DNA from: Pseudokineococcus lusitanus
GTDB taxonomy: Bacteria > Actinomycetota > Actinomycetes > Actinomycetales > Quadrisphaeraceae
DNA length: 64,000 nt
Reading direction: 5' to 3'
Assembly (NCBI RefSeq): GCF_003751265.1
Contig: NZ_RJKN01000006.1
Span: 124,001-188,000, forward strand
Below, piece after piece: positions 28,944 through 36,425 of this stretch. How positions within the stretch are numbered: position 1 is the first letter of the stretch; each line of letters starts with the position of its first letter. Position numbers and translations under genes: made by a program. The notes beneath the pieces were generated by a model that worked only from the letters and a program-made list of their open reading frames with translations, had not been told where the DNA came from and made no database searches.

Positions 28944-29570
28944 TCACACGTCGAGCTGCACCCGGTGGGGCACGAAGCCCTCGGCGTGCTCGACGCGTGC
29001 CTGGAAGCCCCGGTAGCCCGCCTGCGTCGTCACCAGGGACGTCGACGCCATGGCGGAGTGCGCCACCTGGGAGGCGTGGCACCGCAGGGCGGTGACCTTC
29101 TTGTCGAAGGCGTCGGTGATGTCGACGAAGACGGACGGGGCGAAGTGGTAGCTCGACGGCGAGTCGTAGCAGAGCACGCGCTTGCAGTGGCGAGCCGCAC
29201 CCAGCGTGGCGAGCGCGACGGCACGGTGGTCCTGGTGCGTGTCCTGCAGCCCGTGGGTGTAGACGACGTCGACGCCCTCCTGGCGGATGAGGCTCTCGAT
29301 GGTGTGCACCAGCTGCAGCTCGTGGGCCGACACCGACCCGTCCGGCAGCCCGCCCCACCGCAGCTCGGCGCCCAGGACGGCGGCGGCCTCCTCCTGCTCG
29401 CGGGTACGGGCGGTGACGTCGCCGGGACCCGCCTGGCCCGTCGTGATGACGAGCATGATCACCCGGTCCCCCCGGGCGACGTGCTTGGCGAGGGCTCCCC
29501 CGCAGCCGAGCTCGATGTCGTCCGGGTGCGAGCCGACGGCCAGGACGGTCGTGGTGGTGCACGTGCACAT
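28944..29570 (-). CDS. PIG-L (LmbE-like) family deacetylase
   Basis: A 208-residue zinc-dependent N-deacetylase of the GlcNAc-PI de-N-acetylase family. The signature AVGSHPDDIELGCGG (about 11-25) supplies two metal ligands and the catalytic Asp, and THGLQDTHQDHRAVA (about 104-118) supplies the distal His ligand. Actinobacterial members deacetylate GlcNAc-inositol (MshB), mycothiol conjugates (Mca) or various sugars; this one is shorter than MshB and lacks its extra loops. ATG follows GGGGGGAACC. It is downstream of the GH6 gene in the same direction but two hairpins intervene, so it may be transcribed separately. Confidence 0.83.
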   Translation of the reverse strand: MCTCTTTTVLAVGSHPDDIELGCGGALAKHVARGDRVIMLVITTGQAGPGDVTARTREQEEAAAVLGAELRWGGLPDGSVSAHELQLVHTIESLIRQEGVDVVYTHGLQDTHQDHRAVALATLGAARHCKRVLCYDSPSSYHFAPSVFVDITDAFDKKVTALRCHASQVAHSAMASTSLVTTQAGYRGFQARVEHAEGFVPHRVQLDV

Positions 29571-29726: not shown

Positions 29727-30755
29727 TCAGCCGTCCCCGGGCGGCAGGAGCTGCGCGCCGCCGCGGTCCCGGACCAGGGCGCGCGCCTGCTCCGGCCACC
29801 AGGCGCCGGCCTCGGGCTCGCCGTCCCGGCACGCCCCGTCGGAGTTGCCCGGCTGCTTCACCCAGAGGAAGGCGACGGCGAGCGGTGACCCGGTGGCGAA
29901 CGTGGGTGAGTCCCCCAGCGCCCGCCCGGGCGGGTTGCACCACGCGTCGACGTCACCGGCCGCGGCCTCCGGCGGCCCGTTGCCGTTCCGCGAGGTGTCG
30001 ACGACGAAGGACGTCCCGTCGAGCAGGTCGGAGAGCTCCTCGCCGTAGCGCAGGGAGTCGGCCGTGGTCTGGAAGTTGGACGTGTTCAAGGCGAAGCCGT
30101 CGGCCCGCGAGACGCCCGACTCCCGCAGGGCCGCGGCCAGCGCCTCCGCGTCCTCGACCCAGCCCGCGTGCCCCGCGTCCACGTAGACCTGCGTGGCCTC
30201 GCGCTGGCCGAGGATGTCCACGGCCGTGGTCAGCAGGGCATAGGTGTCCTCGGGCGCCTCGCCGGCGCCGCAGCCCTGGAGGGCGTGCGTCACCGCGTCC
30301 GGCTCGAGCACGACGAGGGCCGGCCGGTCCCCGATGCCCGCGGACAGGGCGCCGAGCCAGTCGTAGTACGTCTGCGCGTCGGCGGCCCCCCCGGCGGAGT
30401 ACTGCCCGCAGTCCCGGTGGGGCATGTTGTAGACCACGAGGACGGGGACCTGCCCGGCCCGGGCCGCCGCCGTGGTGAGGCGTTCGGCCGCGGCGAAGGT
30501 GTCCTCCTGCTGACCGGAGAACCAGGTGGCCACGGGCTGCTCGGCGATCACCGCGTAGGCGTCGGCGTCCGCGTAGCGCCCTGCGGCCTCGGCGGTCGCC
30601 GCCTCGACCGCCGCGGGGCTCGCCGGGTCGACGTACAGCGGCATCCCGCCGAAGAGGGCCTGCGGCGCCTGCGGCTCCTCGGGGGGTGACGGGACCGTCC
30701 CGCAGCCCGCCAGGGCGAGGACGCCGAGCAGCGCGACCGCCGCGGTGACCCTCAC
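29727..30755 (-). CDS. GH6 family lipoprotein, CslZ-like (cslA-glxA operon)
   Basis: A 342-residue lipoprotein: lipobox LALAGC with Cys18, short Pro/Glu linker, then a compact GH6 endoglucanase domain. The two acidic motifs of the family are present, YNMPHRDCGQYSAGG (Asp115) and VVLEPDAVTH (Asp153, the general acid), as is WVKQPGNSDGAC with the base-region Asp. GH6 enzymes cut beta-1,4-glucan with inversion. The GTG start overlaps the glxA stop by four bases. In Streptomyces a GH6 protein (CslZ) sits in the cslA-glxA cluster; by position this is its counterpart and may trim the polymer made by CslA. Confidence 0.85.
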   Translation of the reverse strand: MRVTAAVALLGVLALAGCGTVPSPPEEPQAPQALFGGMPLYVDPASPAAVEAATAEAAGRYADADAYAVIAEQPVATWFSGQQEDTFAAAERLTTAAARAGQVPVLVVYNMPHRDCGQYSAGGAADAQTYYDWLGALSAGIGDRPALVVLEPDAVTHALQGCGAGEAPEDTYALLTTAVDILGQREATQVYVDAGHAGWVEDAEALAAALRESGVSRADGFALNTSNFQTTADSLRYGEELSDLLDGTSFVVDTSRNGNGPPEAAAGDVDAWCNPPGRALGDSPTFATGSPLAVAFLWVKQPGNSDGACRDGEPEAGAWWPEQARALVRDRGGAQLLPPGDG

Positions 30756-32689
30756 GGGACGTGCACCCACTGCGCGACCGACGGCTTCCCGTTCTCGTCG
30801 ACGAGGAAGAGCATGTAGTGACCTGCCGGCGTGAGGTTCTCGTTGGCGTCCAGCGTCAGCGCCAGGGCACCGGAACCGGTCCGCTCGACGTCCAGGGCGA
30901 CCGACCGCTGCTCGGTGTCGGTGACGTGGGTGACGGCGGACGGACGCACCAGGCGGGCGGAGGCGATGTTCCCCGACGCGCGGACCTCGAAGGTCGTGCC
31001 CCGCTCCACCGACTCGGGCGCCTTGAGGACCATGGGTCGGGCACCCTCGGTGAAGAAGTACGGCGGCTGGTAGATCTCGAAGCGCTTCTCGAAGGTCCCG
31101 GCGGTCTCGTTCTCGGCGTCGCCGTACAGGGGGTCCGACCCCAGGGTGAGGACCGAGCCGTCGGGCAGCAGCAACGCCTCGGAGTGGTAGTTGCGCCCGA
31201 CGTGGTTCGGCGCGACCTCCTCCATCGTGTTGGTGGCCGGCGTGTACAGCTGCGCGGCGAAGTTGTCGGACCTGTTCGAGCCGCGGTACCCGCGGGACCC
31301 GCCGGTCAGCAGTACGTCGTCCGTCGGCAGGTTGACCGCCGAGACGTACCGCCCGGGCTGCACCAGGTCGGGCGCCGGCGTGACCCGGGCGTCGTCGAAG
31401 CTGATGACGTCGACACGGGCGGTCGAGCCGGGGGTGTCGCCCACGGGGCCGCCGCCGGCGACGAGCACGTCCTGCTCCTGCGCCGGGGCGAGGAGGATCG
31501 AGCTCGACGTCTCGTTCATCTCCGGCTCACGCAGGCCCCCGGGGATCTCGGCGAACTCGTTGGTGGTCAGGTCCCAGGTGCCGGGCGCCCGCAGCCGCTC
31601 GGCGGGGCCGTAGCCGGTGGAGGAGCCCGAGTAGAGGATCTTCCCGTCCGCACCGCGGAAGAGCGCCGGGTACGTCGGGAAAGGCATGTCGAGGTCGGGG
31701 CGCGGCGTCCACGTCTTGGCGTGGACGTCGTACTCCTCCGTGGTGCCCTGGTTCTCGTCGATGAACTGGCCGTACTCGTCGAGACCCGACACGGCGAAGA
31801 TCGAGTCGTCGTCCGGGTTCGACCCGGCGGCGGAGAAGAGCGAGGGGTACCAGCGCGCCCGGTTGAGGTCGCCGACCTCGACGTACTGCTCCTTGTAGAT
31901 GTCGAACTCGTAGGACGCGTCGAGGCCCCAGTAGTCCTGCTTGGCGGAGTCGATGGTGTCGGCCTGGCCGTAGAGGCCGGGGCGGTCGTCGCCCTTCCAG
32001 GTGAGCTGGTGGCCCTCGCCGGTGAAGTCGTCGCCGGTGCCGGGCTCGACCGCCTCGACCCACACCCGTACGGAGGTGGGCTCCTTGCCGCCCCCGGCGA
32101 GCTTGCGCACCATCGGCAGGACGGTGTCCTCGGTGGTGCGGTACTCCACGCCGGTGGCGTCGTCGACGAAGACGGTGCCGACCGGGACCGGGGTGTCGAC
32201 CTCGTAGATGGCGTCGTTGTGGATCGTCAGGACACCGGCGGCTCGCTCGACGTCGGACTCGAGCACCTCGTACTTCTTCGTGCCGCCGGCGATGAGGACG
32301 TTGCCGTTGGGCAGGAAGGCGTGGCCGCCGCAGAAGAGGTCCTCCGGCGTGTCGATGGTGCGCATCTGGTCGGTGGCGGGGTCCCACAGCAGGGTGCGGA
32401 ACGTCCCGGCCTCGAAGTGGTGCTCGTTGTTGCCGGACCCGGCGACGACGAGCACCTTGCCGGTGGCCAGCAGCACGGAGTGGACCCCGTTGAGCTGGTA
32501 CTCCGGGGGGAGCTCGACCGTCGTCCACGAGCCGTTGGCGGCCATGTAGTCGGGCCGCGACTCCTGCCAGAAGGTCGACGCACGGTCCGTGCCGATCGCG
32601 ACCTGAGGGCCGTTGACGGCGACCAGCAGGACGGCGACGCCGCCGACGACCGCGCGGTTGCGGAGCTTGAGGGCGGTGCTGCGCTTCAC
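30752..32689 (-). CDS. glxA: GlxA-like copper radical oxidase (galactose oxidase family)
   Basis: A 645-residue membrane-anchored or exported oxidase: N-terminal hydrophobic helix (about 13-27), kelch beta-propeller and C-terminal DUF1929 domain (about 545-645). Likely copper-site residues, aligned from memory with galactose oxidase and Streptomyces GlxA, are Cys120 (LFCGGH) cross-linked to Tyr320 (TEEYDV), Tyr501-His502 (GRNYHSE) and His588 (VTHVTDTEQR). The enzyme oxidises a primary alcohol of a glycan to the aldehyde and makes peroxide. GTG start overlaps the cslA stop; its own stop overlaps the GH6 start. The three-gene coupling matches the Streptomyces cslA-glxA-cslZ cluster. Confidence 0.88.
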   Translation of the reverse strand: MKRSTALKLRNRAVVGGVAVLLVAVNGPQVAIGTDRASTFWQESRPDYMAANGSWTTVELPPEYQLNGVHSVLLATGKVLVVAGSGNNEHHFEAGTFRTLLWDPATDQMRTIDTPEDLFCGGHAFLPNGNVLIAGGTKKYEVLESDVERAAGVLTIHNDAIYEVDTPVPVGTVFVDDATGVEYRTTEDTVLPMVRKLAGGGKEPTSVRVWVEAVEPGTGDDFTGEGHQLTWKGDDRPGLYGQADTIDSAKQDYWGLDASYEFDIYKEQYVEVGDLNRARWYPSLFSAAGSNPDDDSIFAVSGLDEYGQFIDENQGTTEEYDVHAKTWTPRPDLDMPFPTYPALFRGADGKILYSGSSTGYGPAERLRAPGTWDLTTNEFAEIPGGLREPEMNETSSSILLAPAQEQDVLVAGGGPVGDTPGSTARVDVISFDDARVTPAPDLVQPGRYVSAVNLPTDDVLLTGGSRGYRGSNRSDNFAAQLYTPATNTMEEVAPNHVGRNYHSEALLLPDGSVLTLGSDPLYGDAENETAGTFEKRFEIYQPPYFFTEGARPMVLKAPESVERGTTFEVRASGNIASARLVRPSAVTHVTDTEQRSVALDVERTGSGALALTLDANENLTPAGHYMLFLVDENGKPSVAQWVHVP

Positions 32690-34506
32690 GGGCGGGCCTC
32701 CAGGACGGCGGGCGTGTCGGGCTGGTGGTCGGTGTCGAGCGGCACGACGAGGTCGCGGGGGGCGGCCGTGCGCACCCGCTGGTGGGGGATGCGCCGGCCG
32801 GCACGGCGGGTGACCGAGGCGCCGTGCAGCTCGGTGCCCTTCCAGATCAGCACCGGCGTGAAGCAGATGGCCAGGGCGAGGAAGGCCCAGAACAGCATCG
32901 TGGGGTGGTGGTGGCCGAGGACGGCCGACGCCACGAGCGAGATGCCGATGAGCACGCCCCAGGCGATGTTCTTGCGGAAGACCGCGAGGCTGTCGCCGAC
33001 CGATCCGGAGCCCTTCGGGGTGACCGCGAAGGGGACGTTCTTGCCGCGGACCGCGTCGATCAGCGCGACCACGTACATGGGCGCCGAGAGGATCGACACG
33101 AACATCCCGAGGATGCCGGAGGACCCCTCCTCCTCGTGGGGAGAGACGTTGTACCGACGGTTCCAGAAGTAGATGCCCACCTGCATCACCGCGGCGTTCA
33201 GGTACAGCATCAACCAGATGTTGGCCGCCACCCGGACGCCGCCGGCCCCCGTCCACAGGTAGATGGCGACGTTGATGTTGCCGAGGATCCAGCTCATCGC
33301 CGCCGACGGGTAGTACGACATGAGGAACAGGTAGTGCAGGCGCCGGCCCCAGGAGAGCTTGGCGGCGAACCTGTGGAAGGAGCGGACCATCACCTCGTTG
33401 GTGCCGCGCGCCCATCGGTTCTGCTGGGTGAAGAAGTCCGACCAGTTCCCCGGGCCCTCGCCGACGGCGAGCACGTCGGGCGTGTAGACCGACTTCCACG
33501 TGCGACCGGTCAGGCTGTTCTTCCGGGTGTGCCACACGAGCGACGTGGCTGCGTCCTCGGTGATCGAGTCGGCGAGCCCGTCGATCTCCCGCAGCGCCTG
33601 CAGCCGGACGGCGTTGTTGGTGCCCACGAACATCGGCGTGGTCCAGCGGTTCCCGGCGCGCTGCAGCACCGAGTGGAACAGGTACTGCTGGGACTCGCTC
33701 GCCTTGGTGACGAAGTTGTCGTGGTTCTGCCCGTACACCTGGGGGCCGACGACGAAGGCGACGTCCGGGTCGCGGAAGTACCCCATCAGCCGGCGCGCGA
33801 GGTCCGGGTGCGGGACGTGGTCGGTGTCGACCGACACCCAGAAGTCGTAGGCGTGGCCGTGCTCGACGAACCAGGCGTTGTAGTTGCCGTGCTTGGTCCT
33901 GCGCTTGTGCTTGCCGGACTCCTGGTTCCACTTCTCGACCCCGTGGCGGGTGAAGTGGCGGACACCGATCCGCTCGCACATCGCCCGCACGTCGGGGTCG
34001 TCCCCCTCGTCGAGCAACCAGATGTCCAGGACGCCGTCGTGGCGGATGGCCTTGGCGGCCACGAGCGTCTTCTCCGCCATCTCCACCGGCTCCTTGCCGG
34101 GGACGATGGTGGTGAGGAACGCCAGACGATGACCGGCCTCGGGCAGCACGGGGACCGGGTCGGCCGCGTTGAGAGTCGCCCGCACGAGGGTGGTGACGTT
34201 GATGAGCCGCAGCACCTCGATGAGGCCGACGGCGGCGATGAGCCCGAAGCTCACGTAGTGCGCCCACCCGACGAGGTCGGTGGGGTGGTGCGCCGGCTGC
34301 AGCAGCCAGACGAGGAAGGTCACCTCGAAGACCACGGCGGCGGCCAGCAGCGGGTAGGCGTGCCGGCGGCGGCCGTCCCGGGCGATGAGGTTGCGGAAGC
34401 GGACCGTGTAGGGCCCGGGGCCCGGGTCGGTGAGCGGCCCGGCCAGACGCGTGTAGGCGTCGTACGTGTGGATGTTGTCCCGGTGGATGCCCTCCGTGAC
34501 GCTCAC
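32686..34506 (-). CDS. cslA: Cellulose synthase-like glycosyltransferase 2 (CslA)
   Basis: A 606-residue processive GT2 membrane enzyme. Two N-terminal helices (about 50-105) precede the catalytic domain with Asp166 (LLDEGDD), DTD at 227-229, TED at 317-319 and QQNRW at 361-365, the D,D,D,QxxRW set of cellulose/chitin/hyaluronan synthases. About five helices follow (380-575). The c-di-GMP PilZ domain of BcsA is absent. The start is uncertain: GTG at 34506 overlaps the stop of a 16-codon leader ORF, while the frame stays open to an ATG at 34635. It should polymerise a beta-glucan at the membrane that GlxA then oxidises. Confidence 0.87.
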   Translation of the reverse strand: MSVTEGIHRDNIHTYDAYTRLAGPLTDPGPGPYTVRFRNLIARDGRRRHAYPLLAAAVVFEVTFLVWLLQPAHHPTDLVGWAHYVSFGLIAAVGLIEVLRLINVTTLVRATLNAADPVPVLPEAGHRLAFLTTIVPGKEPVEMAEKTLVAAKAIRHDGVLDIWLLDEGDDPDVRAMCERIGVRHFTRHGVEKWNQESGKHKRRTKHGNYNAWFVEHGHAYDFWVSVDTDHVPHPDLARRLMGYFRDPDVAFVVGPQVYGQNHDNFVTKASESQQYLFHSVLQRAGNRWTTPMFVGTNNAVRLQALREIDGLADSITEDAATSLVWHTRKNSLTGRTWKSVYTPDVLAVGEGPGNWSDFFTQQNRWARGTNEVMVRSFHRFAAKLSWGRRLHYLFLMSYYPSAAMSWILGNINVAIYLWTGAGGVRVAANIWLMLYLNAAVMQVGIYFWNRRYNVSPHEEEGSSGILGMFVSILSAPMYVVALIDAVRGKNVPFAVTPKGSGSVGDSLAVFRKNIAWGVLIGISLVASAVLGHHHPTMLFWAFLALAICFTPVLIWKGTELHGASVTRRAGRRIPHQRVRTAAPRDLVVPLDTDHQPDTPAVLEARP

Positions 34507-34553
34507 GCGAGCGTCACCGACCGCATCCGGGCAGGCTGAAGCAGACCGTTCAT
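34503..34553 (-). CDS. Possible 16-residue leader peptide of cslA
   Basis: ATG at 34553 after AAGGGGGACTCC gives MNGLLQPARMRSVTLA and a TGA that overlaps the GTG of cslA by four bases, the same coupling used between cslA, glxA and GH6. If cslA really starts at the GTG, this short frame would load ribosomes for it. If cslA starts at the upstream ATG (34635), the frame is meaningless. No homology is expected at this size. Confidence 0.35.
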   Translation of the reverse strand: MNGLLQPARMRSVTLA

Positions 34554-35015
34554 CGGAGTCCCCCTTGGACGAAGAGTCATCGCGCAGTCCCCCCGCGCGG
34601 CTCGTCCTCAGGACCATATCCACGCTGCGTGACAACGAAGTTCACGGCAGGTGACTTCTCTCCGTCGGCAGTCACAAGGCGTGATCGCCCCTGACGCGGA
34701 GAAGGCGGCCGGTGCCCGATGTGACCCGGACTGCAACAGATCGGCACATCCGCCAGATCACGGCCGGGTTAAACTGTGATCCGTGTCACATGTGATCCGG
34801 GGCGCAGTCACTTGACCTCCACGCCTTCGCGTTTTCTGGCCGAAGGCGCTGTGGCAGAGCGTTTGTCACAGGGCCCGGCAGGGGGTTGGCCGCCCGCCGA
34901 CCACGGCGCCGGTCACGGACGCCTCCGGTGACGAGCGCTGCGCCGTCAAGTCCCCCCCGCCCCGCGACGAGGGCACCGGGGAACGCCCCACCTCGTCGCG
35001 CAGCCAGGAGACCCG
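34554..35015. other. Divergent promoter region of cslA and GH6-CBM genes
   Basis: About 460 bp without a convincing gene. It is visibly richer in A+T than its surroundings (for example GGGTTAAACTGTGATC at 34767-34782) and rich in GTGA/TCAC words. It holds a perfect CRP-type palindrome at 34775-34790, a second TGTGATCC half site from 34791 and TTGACC at 34812-34817. Promoters for both divergent transcripts must lie here. I see no riboswitch-like structure. Confidence 0.6.
34775..34790. promoter_or_regulatory. CRP-type operator, perfect TGTGA-N6-TCACA
   Basis: TGTGATCCGTGTCACA matches the actinobacterial and E. coli CRP/FNR-family consensus TGTGA-N6-TCACA at every fixed base. It is followed at once by another TGTGATCC half site. 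Placed between the divergent cslA and GH6-CBM genes, it suggests cAMP-CRP control of the polymer locus. Confidence 0.65.
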
Positions 35016-36425
35016 ATGCCCGTCCGCCACGCCACCTCTCGCCGCCATCGCCTCCTGGCCCAGGTGGGGACCGCCGTCGTCACCGCCGCCCTGCTCACGG
35101 GGACCGGGGCGCCGGCCGTCGGGGCCGAGCCGGTCGCCAGCCGGTCGTGGACCCTCTCCGCCGGGGCGGGGGCGGTCCGCGCGGCGACCGGGACGCCCGG
35201 CGGGACCGAGGCGCTGCTCCGCTCGCCGGGGTCGGCGACGACGACGCTGACCGGCGCGGGACGGGTGGTGCTGCGGGCGCGCGGCGACCAGTGCGCGGGG
35301 GCGCCCCGGGCGCAGGTGGCCGTCGACGGGCGGACCCTCGGGACCGTGCAGGTGGTCAACGCCTCGGGCTGGTGGGAGTACCCGGTGGGCGATCCCGTGA
35401 GCGCAGGCCGCCACCAGGTCGTCGTCACCTTCCTCAACGACCACCGCACCGCGACGTGCGACCGCAACCTCTTCGCCGGCTGGATCGCCCTCGTACCCGG
35501 CCCCACGACGCCGGTCGTCCGCCCCACGCCGACGCCGCCCCCGCCCACGACGCCTGCCCCGACCACGGGCAACCCCTTCGCCGCCGCAGCGCCTTTCGCG
35601 GACCCGGCGTCCACCGCGCTGCGGGACGCGCGCCGGCAGGCAGACCCCGCGCTGCGCGAGCTGGAGCTGCGGACCGCGTCCCCGGCGACGTCGCTGTGGG
35701 TCGGCGACTGGCTCAGCGCGAGCGCGGTCCGCTCCGAGGTCGGGCGGTACGCGACGGCCGCACGGGCGGCCGGCCGCACGGGTGTCCTCACCGTCTACGC
35801 GATCCCCGGGCGGGACTGCGGCAGCTACTCGGCGGGCGGGCTGGCGCCCGACGCCTACCGCACCTGGGTGCGCGCCGTCGCCGACGGCCTGCGCGGGACC
35901 GGGACGGCCGTCGTGCTCGAGCCGGACGCCCTCGCGCAGCTGGGCGCCTGCCCGCAGGGCGACCGCGTCGGCCTGCTGCGCGACGCCGTCACCGTCCTGG
36001 CGGACGCGGGCGCCGTCGTCTACCTCGACGCCGGCCACTCCGGCTGGACGACCCCCGAGGTCATGGCCACGCGCCTGCGCCAGGCCGGCGTCGACCGCGC
36101 CCGCGGCTTCGCCACGAACGTCAGCAACTTCCGGACGACCGCCGACGAGCGGGCCTACGGCCAGCGGCTGTCGGCGCTGCTCGGCGGCAAGCGCTTCGTC
36201 GTGGACACCTCGCGCAACGGGCAGGGCCCGGGGTCGACGTGGTGCAACCCCACCGGTCGCGGCCTCGGGACCACGCCGCGGGCCGTCCAGGACGGCACCG
36301 CCCTGGACGCGCTGCTGTGGATCAAGCGGCCCGGGCAGTCGGACGGGACGTGCGGCGGCGGCCCCGCCGCCGGTACCTGGTGGCCGCGCCAGGCCCAGGA
36401 GCTCGCCCGCAACGCCGTCCGGTGA
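35016..36425 (+). CDS. Secreted GH6 glycosidase with CBM60-like module
   Basis: A 469-residue exported enzyme. Signal peptide about 1-37 (core TAVVTAALLTGTGAPAVGA). Next a Ca-dependent xylan/cellulose-binding module of the CBM60/CBM36 type (about 45-160) with VDGRTLGTVQVV, DDHR-like loop and CDRNLFAGWI. Then a Pro/Thr linker (162-185) and the GH6 domain (190-469) with YAIPGRDCGSYSAGG, VVLEPDALAQ and WIKRPGQSDGTC holding the catalytic and base-region acids. ATG follows AGGAG. It is divergent from cslA and paralogous to the operon's GH6 lipoprotein, so it may process the same polymer or degrade plant cellulose. A hairpin follows. Confidence 0.88.
   Translation: MPVRHATSRRHRLLAQVGTAVVTAALLTGTGAPAVGAEPVASRSWTLSAGAGAVRAATGTPGGTEALLRSPGSATTTLTGAGRVVLRARGDQCAGAPRAQVAVDGRTLGTVQVVNASGWWEYPVGDPVSAGRHQVVVTFLNDHRTATCDRNLFAGWIALVPGPTTPVVRPTPTPPPPTTPAPTTGNPFAAAAPFADPASTALRDARRQADPALRELELRTASPATSLWVGDWLSASAVRSEVGRYATAARAAGRTGVLTVYAIPGRDCGSYSAGGLAPDAYRTWVRAVADGLRGTGTAVVLEPDALAQLGACPQGDRVGLLRDAVTVLADAGAVVYLDAGHSGWTTPEVMATRLRQAGVDRARGFATNVSNFRTTADERAYGQRLSALLGGKRFVVDTSRNGQGPGSTWCNPTGRGLGTTPRAVQDGTALDALLWIKRPGQSDGTCGGGPAAGTWWPRQAQELARNAVR

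Follow-up and report, generated by a model that had tools for sequence, protein, structure and literature searches.

We analysed a 64,000-nucleotide stretch of Pseudokineococcus lusitanus DNA (contig NZ_RJKN01000006.1, positions 124,001 to 188,000; hereafter the window), from a genome of 3.84 Mb in 19 contigs, that contains genes for a cellulose-synthase-like protein, CslA, and for a homologue of the copper radical oxidase GlxA. On the minus strand cslA, glxA and a gene for a GH6 lipoprotein form one operon, linked by two four-base GTGA overlaps, and a gene for a second, secreted GH6 protein with a CBM60 module is divergent from it on the plus strand (Table 1); 126 bases past this CBM60-GH6 gene lies a SulP transporter gene, followed by a MerR gene. 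A first-pass annotation, made from the sequence alone, had described a CslA-GlxA-GH6 glycan locus whose operon genes are chained by four-base overlaps, and domain matches, structure matches and both GTGA junctions bear out that description for all four genes. The core genes are those of the published Streptomyces CslA-GlxA-CslZ set. The core is thus of a known kind, found here in a group beyond Streptomyces and Frankia, the genera named for Actinobacteria among the orthologues in a 2013 report (PMC3543389). The genome as a whole contains just two GH6 matches, both at the cslA locus, and one GlxA match; Rfam and tRNA scans of the window gave no match.

Table 1 Features of the cslA locus and its flank, in window coordinates
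Feature	Position	Strand	Evidence and remarks
PIG-L deacetylase-like gene, neighbour judged to lie outside the system	28944..29570	-	PF02585 E 7e-25
GH6 lipoprotein gene (CslZ-like)	29727..30755	-	PF01341 E 8.3e-63; GTGA junction, lipobox LALAGC, RDCG
glxA, membrane-anchored copper radical oxidase homologue	30752..32689	-	NF052501 717.8 bits; 4unm E 2.6e-147; copper-site residues present
cslA, cellulose-synthase-like GT2	32686..~34506	-	start inferred; frame open to 34635; motifs DTD, TED, QQNRW, FAVTPK
TGTGATCCGTGTCACA, perfect CRP-type palindrome	34775..34790	.	in the shared upstream region; putative function
Secreted CBM60-GH6 gene	35016..36425	+	PF01341 E 1.4e-56, 193 bits; PF16841 E 1.4e-12

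Among solved structures, the one most closely related to the window CslA is the A subunit of a bacterial cellulose synthase (E 8.9e-21), and the four motifs read in the protein are those of GT2 synthases, namely DxD, TED, QxxRW and the FxVTxK gating loop (PMC11022532). It resembles the Streptomyces type in these motifs and in its adjacent, GTGA-overlapped glxA, whose product has a modelled N-terminal membrane helix (residues 3-43). In Streptomyces lividans, CslA and GlxA are reported to assemble into a cellulose-synthesizing complex; UDP is released only when both are part of it, and cyclic di-GMP (c-di-GMP) has to be supplied in vitro for full activity. The same report shows GlxA to be required for synthesis and leaves its redox role undecided (PMC11022532).

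The GlxA model NF052501 matches residues 5-647 of the window protein (E 1e-215) with a score below the curated cut-off of 800 bits, and we therefore term the protein a GlxA homologue rather than a member of the NF052501 equivalog. It contains the residues of a GlxA-type (AA5-like) copper radical oxidase, that is, the Cys and Tyr of the cross-link (C120 and Y281, numbered from the GTG start), a second Tyr (Y501) and two His (H502 and H588), as well as Trp280; we take the roles of the copper-site residues to be those of their counterparts in galactose oxidase. The motif that aligns with C120 is encoded by the primer published for the C121G variant of S. lividans GlxA (PMC4736821), and the Trp next to the Tyr of the cross-link (Trp280 in the window) is identified by Protein Data Bank entry 5lqi, the structure of a W288A mutant. 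An AlphaFold2 model of the protein (predicted local distance difference test score 84.6) matches 4unm_A with Z 54.6 and a root-mean-square deviation (rmsd) of 4.9 over 585 residues. Residue alignment thus points to the Cys-Tyr copper site whose confirmation the first-pass annotation had called for, in a predicted fold like that of 4unm_A. All five copper-site residues are retained in 56 of 57 distinct GlxA-like sequences (from 79 sequences, with matches shorter than 900 bases excluded, including that of Modestobacter, which was read separately), a set that includes distant copper oxidases not adjoining a cslA; the exception is the GlxA of Pseudokineococcus 4-144, described below. As a separate observation from the class-wide search, many shorter GlxA-like proteins in genomes of one family (f36) match the model only at about 5-147 and 257-645, and from their sequences they seem to be without the inserted beta-barrel domain.

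The GTG start of the GH6 lipoprotein gene lies in the overlap with the glxA stop codon, an upstream GTG at 30770 being also possible. Like CslZ, its product combines a GH6 domain, a lipobox (LALAGC) and the catalytic Asp in an RDCG motif, and has no carbohydrate-binding module. In the divergent GH6 protein the CBM60 model scores 48.3 bits against a cut-off of 28.2, and the best solved relative is 1uoz (E 2.1e-70). The 509 bases between this gene and the inferred start of cslA hold TGTGATCCGTGTCACA, a perfect copy of TGTGA-N6-TCACA, which we take to be the CRP-type operator pattern. It is the only match in the window when one mismatch is allowed, and has none; shuffled sequences gave a mean of 0.28 matches, with at least one in 21 of 100 shuffles. 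Perfect palindromes occur at 5 places in the genome and the reversed-pattern control at 0. A scan of the shared region for sigma-70 promoters and terminators found nothing. As a conserved feature of the locus the site was rejected, because 13 other loci gave no perfect match (at most 9 of 10 bases, at L089, and next 8 of 10, at L072 and L077); cAMP/CRP control of the locus is a lead that the site in the window may offer.

Matches to the GlxA model were found in 99 of 394 genomes of the class (30 over the cut-off) and, in a sample of 396 genomes from the order, in 23 (5 over the cut-off). Full-length GlxA occurs in 7 of 25 genomes from the two nearest families: that of the window, Pseudokineococcus 4-144, Quadrisphaera sp. 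INWT6, Kineococcus siccus, K. xinjiangensis, K. rubinsiae (two loci) and G480. In the genome G005 two fragments of the GlxA C terminus lie where contigs end, which makes it a possible eighth carrier; G004 and G527, with partial copper-oxidase matches only, were scored as without full-length GlxA, and G008 (76% complete), G491, G503 and G539 gave no GlxA match. A scan of named genomes with an alignment yielded 13 loci, and one with a single protein confirmed no relative. Comparison of the loci indicated that the core gene set is kept together in relatives; with the copper-site residues of the window GlxA also in place, neither of the two findings that the first-pass annotation had named as refuting it was obtained. 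Within the same genus, the genome G001 has no GlxA or GH6 match and carries a CslA-like synthase gene (product 42% identical) followed by a GH26-like gene (L102:3762-6543), perhaps a different beta-glycan system. In a literature search outside which most subscription journals lay, we found nothing on GlxA in Kineococcus, on GlxA Tyr289 or on copper radical oxidase pseudoenzymes, and the papers found on Kineococcus and cellulose synthase had no evident link to the present locus.

Searches for GH6, AA10, CBM60 and SCO1-SenC covered 20 of the 25 genomes (all but G005, G008, G491, G503 and G539), which are related, so that the counts are not independent events. GH6 is present in all seven GlxA carriers, with at least two copies in six, and a second GH6 gene lies at or beside 6 of the 8 loci in Kineococcus, Quadrisphaera and Pseudokineococcus; the 4-144 locus has one GH6 gene and a remnant. 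Outside this group, nine loci have one GH6 gene each within the stretch examined (four in Actinoplanes, two in named Streptomyces, and those of G223, G150 and G402), that of A. liguriensis being split in two pieces. The second GH6 with a binding module, noted in the first-pass annotation, is genuine and recurs with the locus within this group. Its divergence across a shared upstream region, also noted there, holds for the window and for K. xinjiangensis (two copies); as a fixed arrangement we reject it, because the GH6 genes swap places between species. The second GH6 gene is downstream and convergent at K. rubinsiae locus A and in K. siccus, in tandem with an opposed GH6 lipoprotein gene in Quadrisphaera, and, in G480, itself a gene of the operon, the divergent gene there being that of the GH6 lipoprotein.

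A mutant of Streptomyces coelicolor without both CslZ and the lytic polysaccharide monooxygenase (LPMO) LpmP is reported to lose the glucan at hyphal tips (PMC9040799). No AA10 LPMO (PF03067) was found in any of the 20 genomes, that of the window included, so that a CslZ-LpmP export module was not detected here, whereas 17 of 19 comparison genomes with GlxA contain AA10, only G410 and Modestobacter being without a match. The paired GH6 set without an LPMO is a variant of the known CslA-GlxA kind, in which the part of LpmP could plausibly be taken by a GH6 that carries a binding module of its own. As an observation in its own right, G410 has two cslA-glxA pairs (L085 and L086), with no GH6 in the stretches examined and no AA10 match in the genome.

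Alternatively, the CBM60-GH6 protein could be a secreted cellulase of the usual sort, directed at polysaccharide from plants or algae, whose gene adjoins the operon by chance, a view to which the CRP-type site upstream, with its suggestion of carbon control, lends something. We consider it unlikely, in view of how CBM60 is distributed: it was found in just five of the 20 genomes (those of the window, K. siccus, K. xinjiangensis, K. rubinsiae and G480), that is, in 5 of 7 with full-length GlxA against 0 of 13 without, and the GlxA of all five carriers is intact. Four of the five have all their matches at the locus or next to it; K. siccus has its match elsewhere, on a small contig, and its copy at the locus is truncated where that contig stops. 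The CBM60-GH6 gene stays with the locus while changing position.

The most interesting point is the GlxA of a sister genome, and it rests on that one genome. The uncultured Pseudokineococcus sp. isolate 4-144 (NZ_CANMAA01, our G003; 96% complete) is the only other Pseudokineococcus genome found with glxA, and its locus (L022, the same place as L080) shares with that of the window the neighbours SulP, MerR and GH13; CslA is 74% identical between the two and GlxA 51%. In 4-144 GlxA all five copper-site residues are lost (C->G, Y->R, Y->H, H->R and H->Q), the Trp alone being kept among six residues checked, and the Gly aligns with the position of the laboratory C121G variant. No second GlxA was found in the genome. 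Among 152 columns invariant in 12 other GlxAs, 39 are changed in 4-144 and 19 in the window; the corresponding counts are 3 and 3 for CslA (146 columns) and 3 and 4 for the GH6 lipoprotein (69 columns). The five copper-site residues are all among the 39 (p 9e-4, the columns not being independent). In relative-rate tests, 4-144 GlxA was faster than that of the window with K. rubinsiae (99 against 58, p 0.001) and with Actinoplanes (80 against 51, p 0.011) as reference, the difference with K. xinjiangensis not being significant (84 against 64, p 0.10); for CslA it was the window protein that was faster (51 against 31, p 0.03; 40 against 20, p 0.01; 36 against 28, p 0.32).

At the sister locus both GTGA overlaps, the CslA motifs and the GlxA membrane helix are kept, and 4-144 glxA has homology in a single frame over window GlxA residues 3-647, with gaps in the protein alignment of whole residues only. 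A model of 4-144 GlxA matches 4unm_A with Z 54.3 and rmsd 5.5 over 578 residues; because intact homologues were part of the alignment behind it, the model does not prove the fold independently. The second GH6 gene is a frameshifted fragment of 78 residues, 63% identical to residues 201-278 of CBM60-GH6, with homology resuming in another frame. Between this remnant and the SulP gene lies a GGDEF-EAL gene (L022:4507-6909, plus strand), of interest because of the c-di-GMP requirement of CslA-GlxA described above. Loss of copper supply was rejected as the cause of the copper-free GlxA: SCO1-SenC did not reach the cut-off in any of the 20 genomes, those with an intact copper site among them (G098 gave one match below it), and so explains nothing here.

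These findings make it probable, in our judgement, that the locus specifies a CslA-GlxA cellulose synthase in which GlxA is the partner of CslA and the oxidase role is separable. By analogy, CslA would polymerize UDP-glucose and thread beta-1,4-glucan out across the membrane, and GlxA, anchored by one N-terminal helix and encoded in the same operon, would be its extracellular partner, as BcsB is to BcsA, and would oxidize the glucan chain where the copper site is present. The lipid-anchored GH6 would trim or free the chain near the membrane, and the CBM60-GH6, once secreted, would grip the beta-1,4-glycan and cut it in the wall, probably assuming the substrate-gripping role of LpmP; expression of the locus may be under cAMP/CRP control. 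That the partner and oxidase roles may be separable is suggested by 4-144, in which the copper site is lost while operon coupling, membrane helix, predicted fold and CslA motifs stay. On our best reading, which draws on that one uncultured genome, GlxA is first a structural partner of CslA, with a radical chemistry that may be lost. For 4-144 itself we tentatively propose, at slightly less than an even chance, that the copper-radical chemistry was removed and GlxA kept as a metal-free subunit of the cellulose synthase, a CBM60-GH6 acting on oxidized glucan being lost alongside.

Several points weigh against this interpretation. Its support is sequence- and model-based, and copper-free GlxA is represented by a single gene, which comes from one uncultured genome and not from the window. 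A stop-free frame is weak evidence at 77% GC, and two of the five other frames of 4-144 glxA are open too. Between 4-144 and the window, the NG86 ratio of nonsynonymous to synonymous divergence (dN/dS, with dS rough at a third-position GC of 97-99%) is 0.41/0.51 for GlxA, the highest of five genes (CslA 0.24/0.50, GH6 0.32/0.69, SulP 0.15/0.44, GH13 0.13/0.43), and partial relaxation or slow decay is therefore possible; by such sequence comparisons the constraint on 4-144 GlxA is weaker than that on the products of neighbouring genes. Nor is GH6 by itself tied to GlxA, since 7 of the 13 genomes lacking full-length GlxA contain it as well; at K. rubinsiae locus B there is a single GH6, the second GH6 of Quadrisphaera is without CBM60, and the 13 other loci gave no perfect CRP-type site. 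Finally, GlxA maturation is reported to follow development in S. lividans (PMC4736821), which argues that the radical matters there.

The decay hinted at by these ratios can be put more strongly: glxA of 4-144 may be on its way out, the oxidation product being unneeded, the operon having begun to lose its second GH6 and the active site of GlxA, and CslA being next. The adjacent GH6 remnant, the dN/dS of GlxA and its branch tip (0.66 in 4-144 against 0.45 in the window, in trees that exclude K. siccus, whose contig has no cslA) fit this course. It nonetheless seems to us rather improbable, given the single-frame homology of 4-144 GlxA and the state of its partners, neither CslA nor the GH6 lipoprotein being degraded by the invariant-column test and the CslA tip (0.23) being shorter than that of the window (0.29). 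A decaying-looking operon, moreover, shows the reverse pattern: in Modestobacter sp. DSM 44400 (L082:8933-12901) the cslA-glxA-GH6 operon is broken by frameshifts, its one GH6 included, and the copper-site motifs persist, owing either to decay or to sequencing error.

The first-pass annotation also suggested an expanded system whose polymer might be deacetylated or mixed; on this view the editor would be the PIG-L protein, whose gene follows that of the GH6 lipoprotein after 156 bases, on its strand, and precedes GH13. We consider this very improbable and rejected it, because the PIG-L gene does not accompany the locus elsewhere (tblastn gave no match to it at the other loci compared, GH13 being the next window gene after GH6 in 4-144) and its best NCBIfam match, the thiol-biosynthesis deacetylase BshB1, is below the cut-off (103.5 against 182.5 bits). 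PIG-L was either gained or lost within the genus and, being outside the system, leaves such a polymer unsupported.

A sister pair with intact and copper-free GlxA, each beside an intact CslA, offers a way to tell the partner role from the oxidase role, and so bears on why a cellulose synthase needs a copper radical oxidase as its partner; if our interpretation is correct, 4-144 GlxA would represent a separation-of-function mutant, arisen in nature, of a cellulose synthase coupled to an oxidase. K. rubinsiae is described as coccoid (PMC7472656), and judging from this species the hyphal-tip picture may not be transferable to the group. The locus thus raises the question of what purpose the glucan serves where hyphal tips are absent, and two GH6 enzymes without an LPMO, in a group with coccoid members, raise that of how it crosses a thick wall without LpmP.

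The nearest known system is the Streptomyces apical glucan locus, cslA-glxA-cslZ(-lpmP) (SCO2836-2838 and SCO2833). Like it, the window has CslA, GlxA and a GH6 lipoprotein, with coupled cslA and glxA genes, a GlxA fold and the copper-site residues. Unlike it, the window has the GH6 lipoprotein gene within the operon rather than opposed to it, a second GH6 with CBM60 and no AA10 LPMO match in the genome, and a hyphal tip would not be expected in its group. The BcsA-BcsB-BcsZ system is alike in combining a GT2 synthase, an anchored extracytoplasmic partner and a glucanase, an analogy drawn in PMC11022532; it differs in that GlxA is described there as unrelated to BcsB in sequence, and in that the window has a GH6 in the place of BcsZ. 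The S. lividans GlxA C121G variant made in the laboratory (PMC4736821) is matched by 4-144 GlxA, which carries Gly at the aligned position and differs in being natural and in having lost four more copper-site residues.
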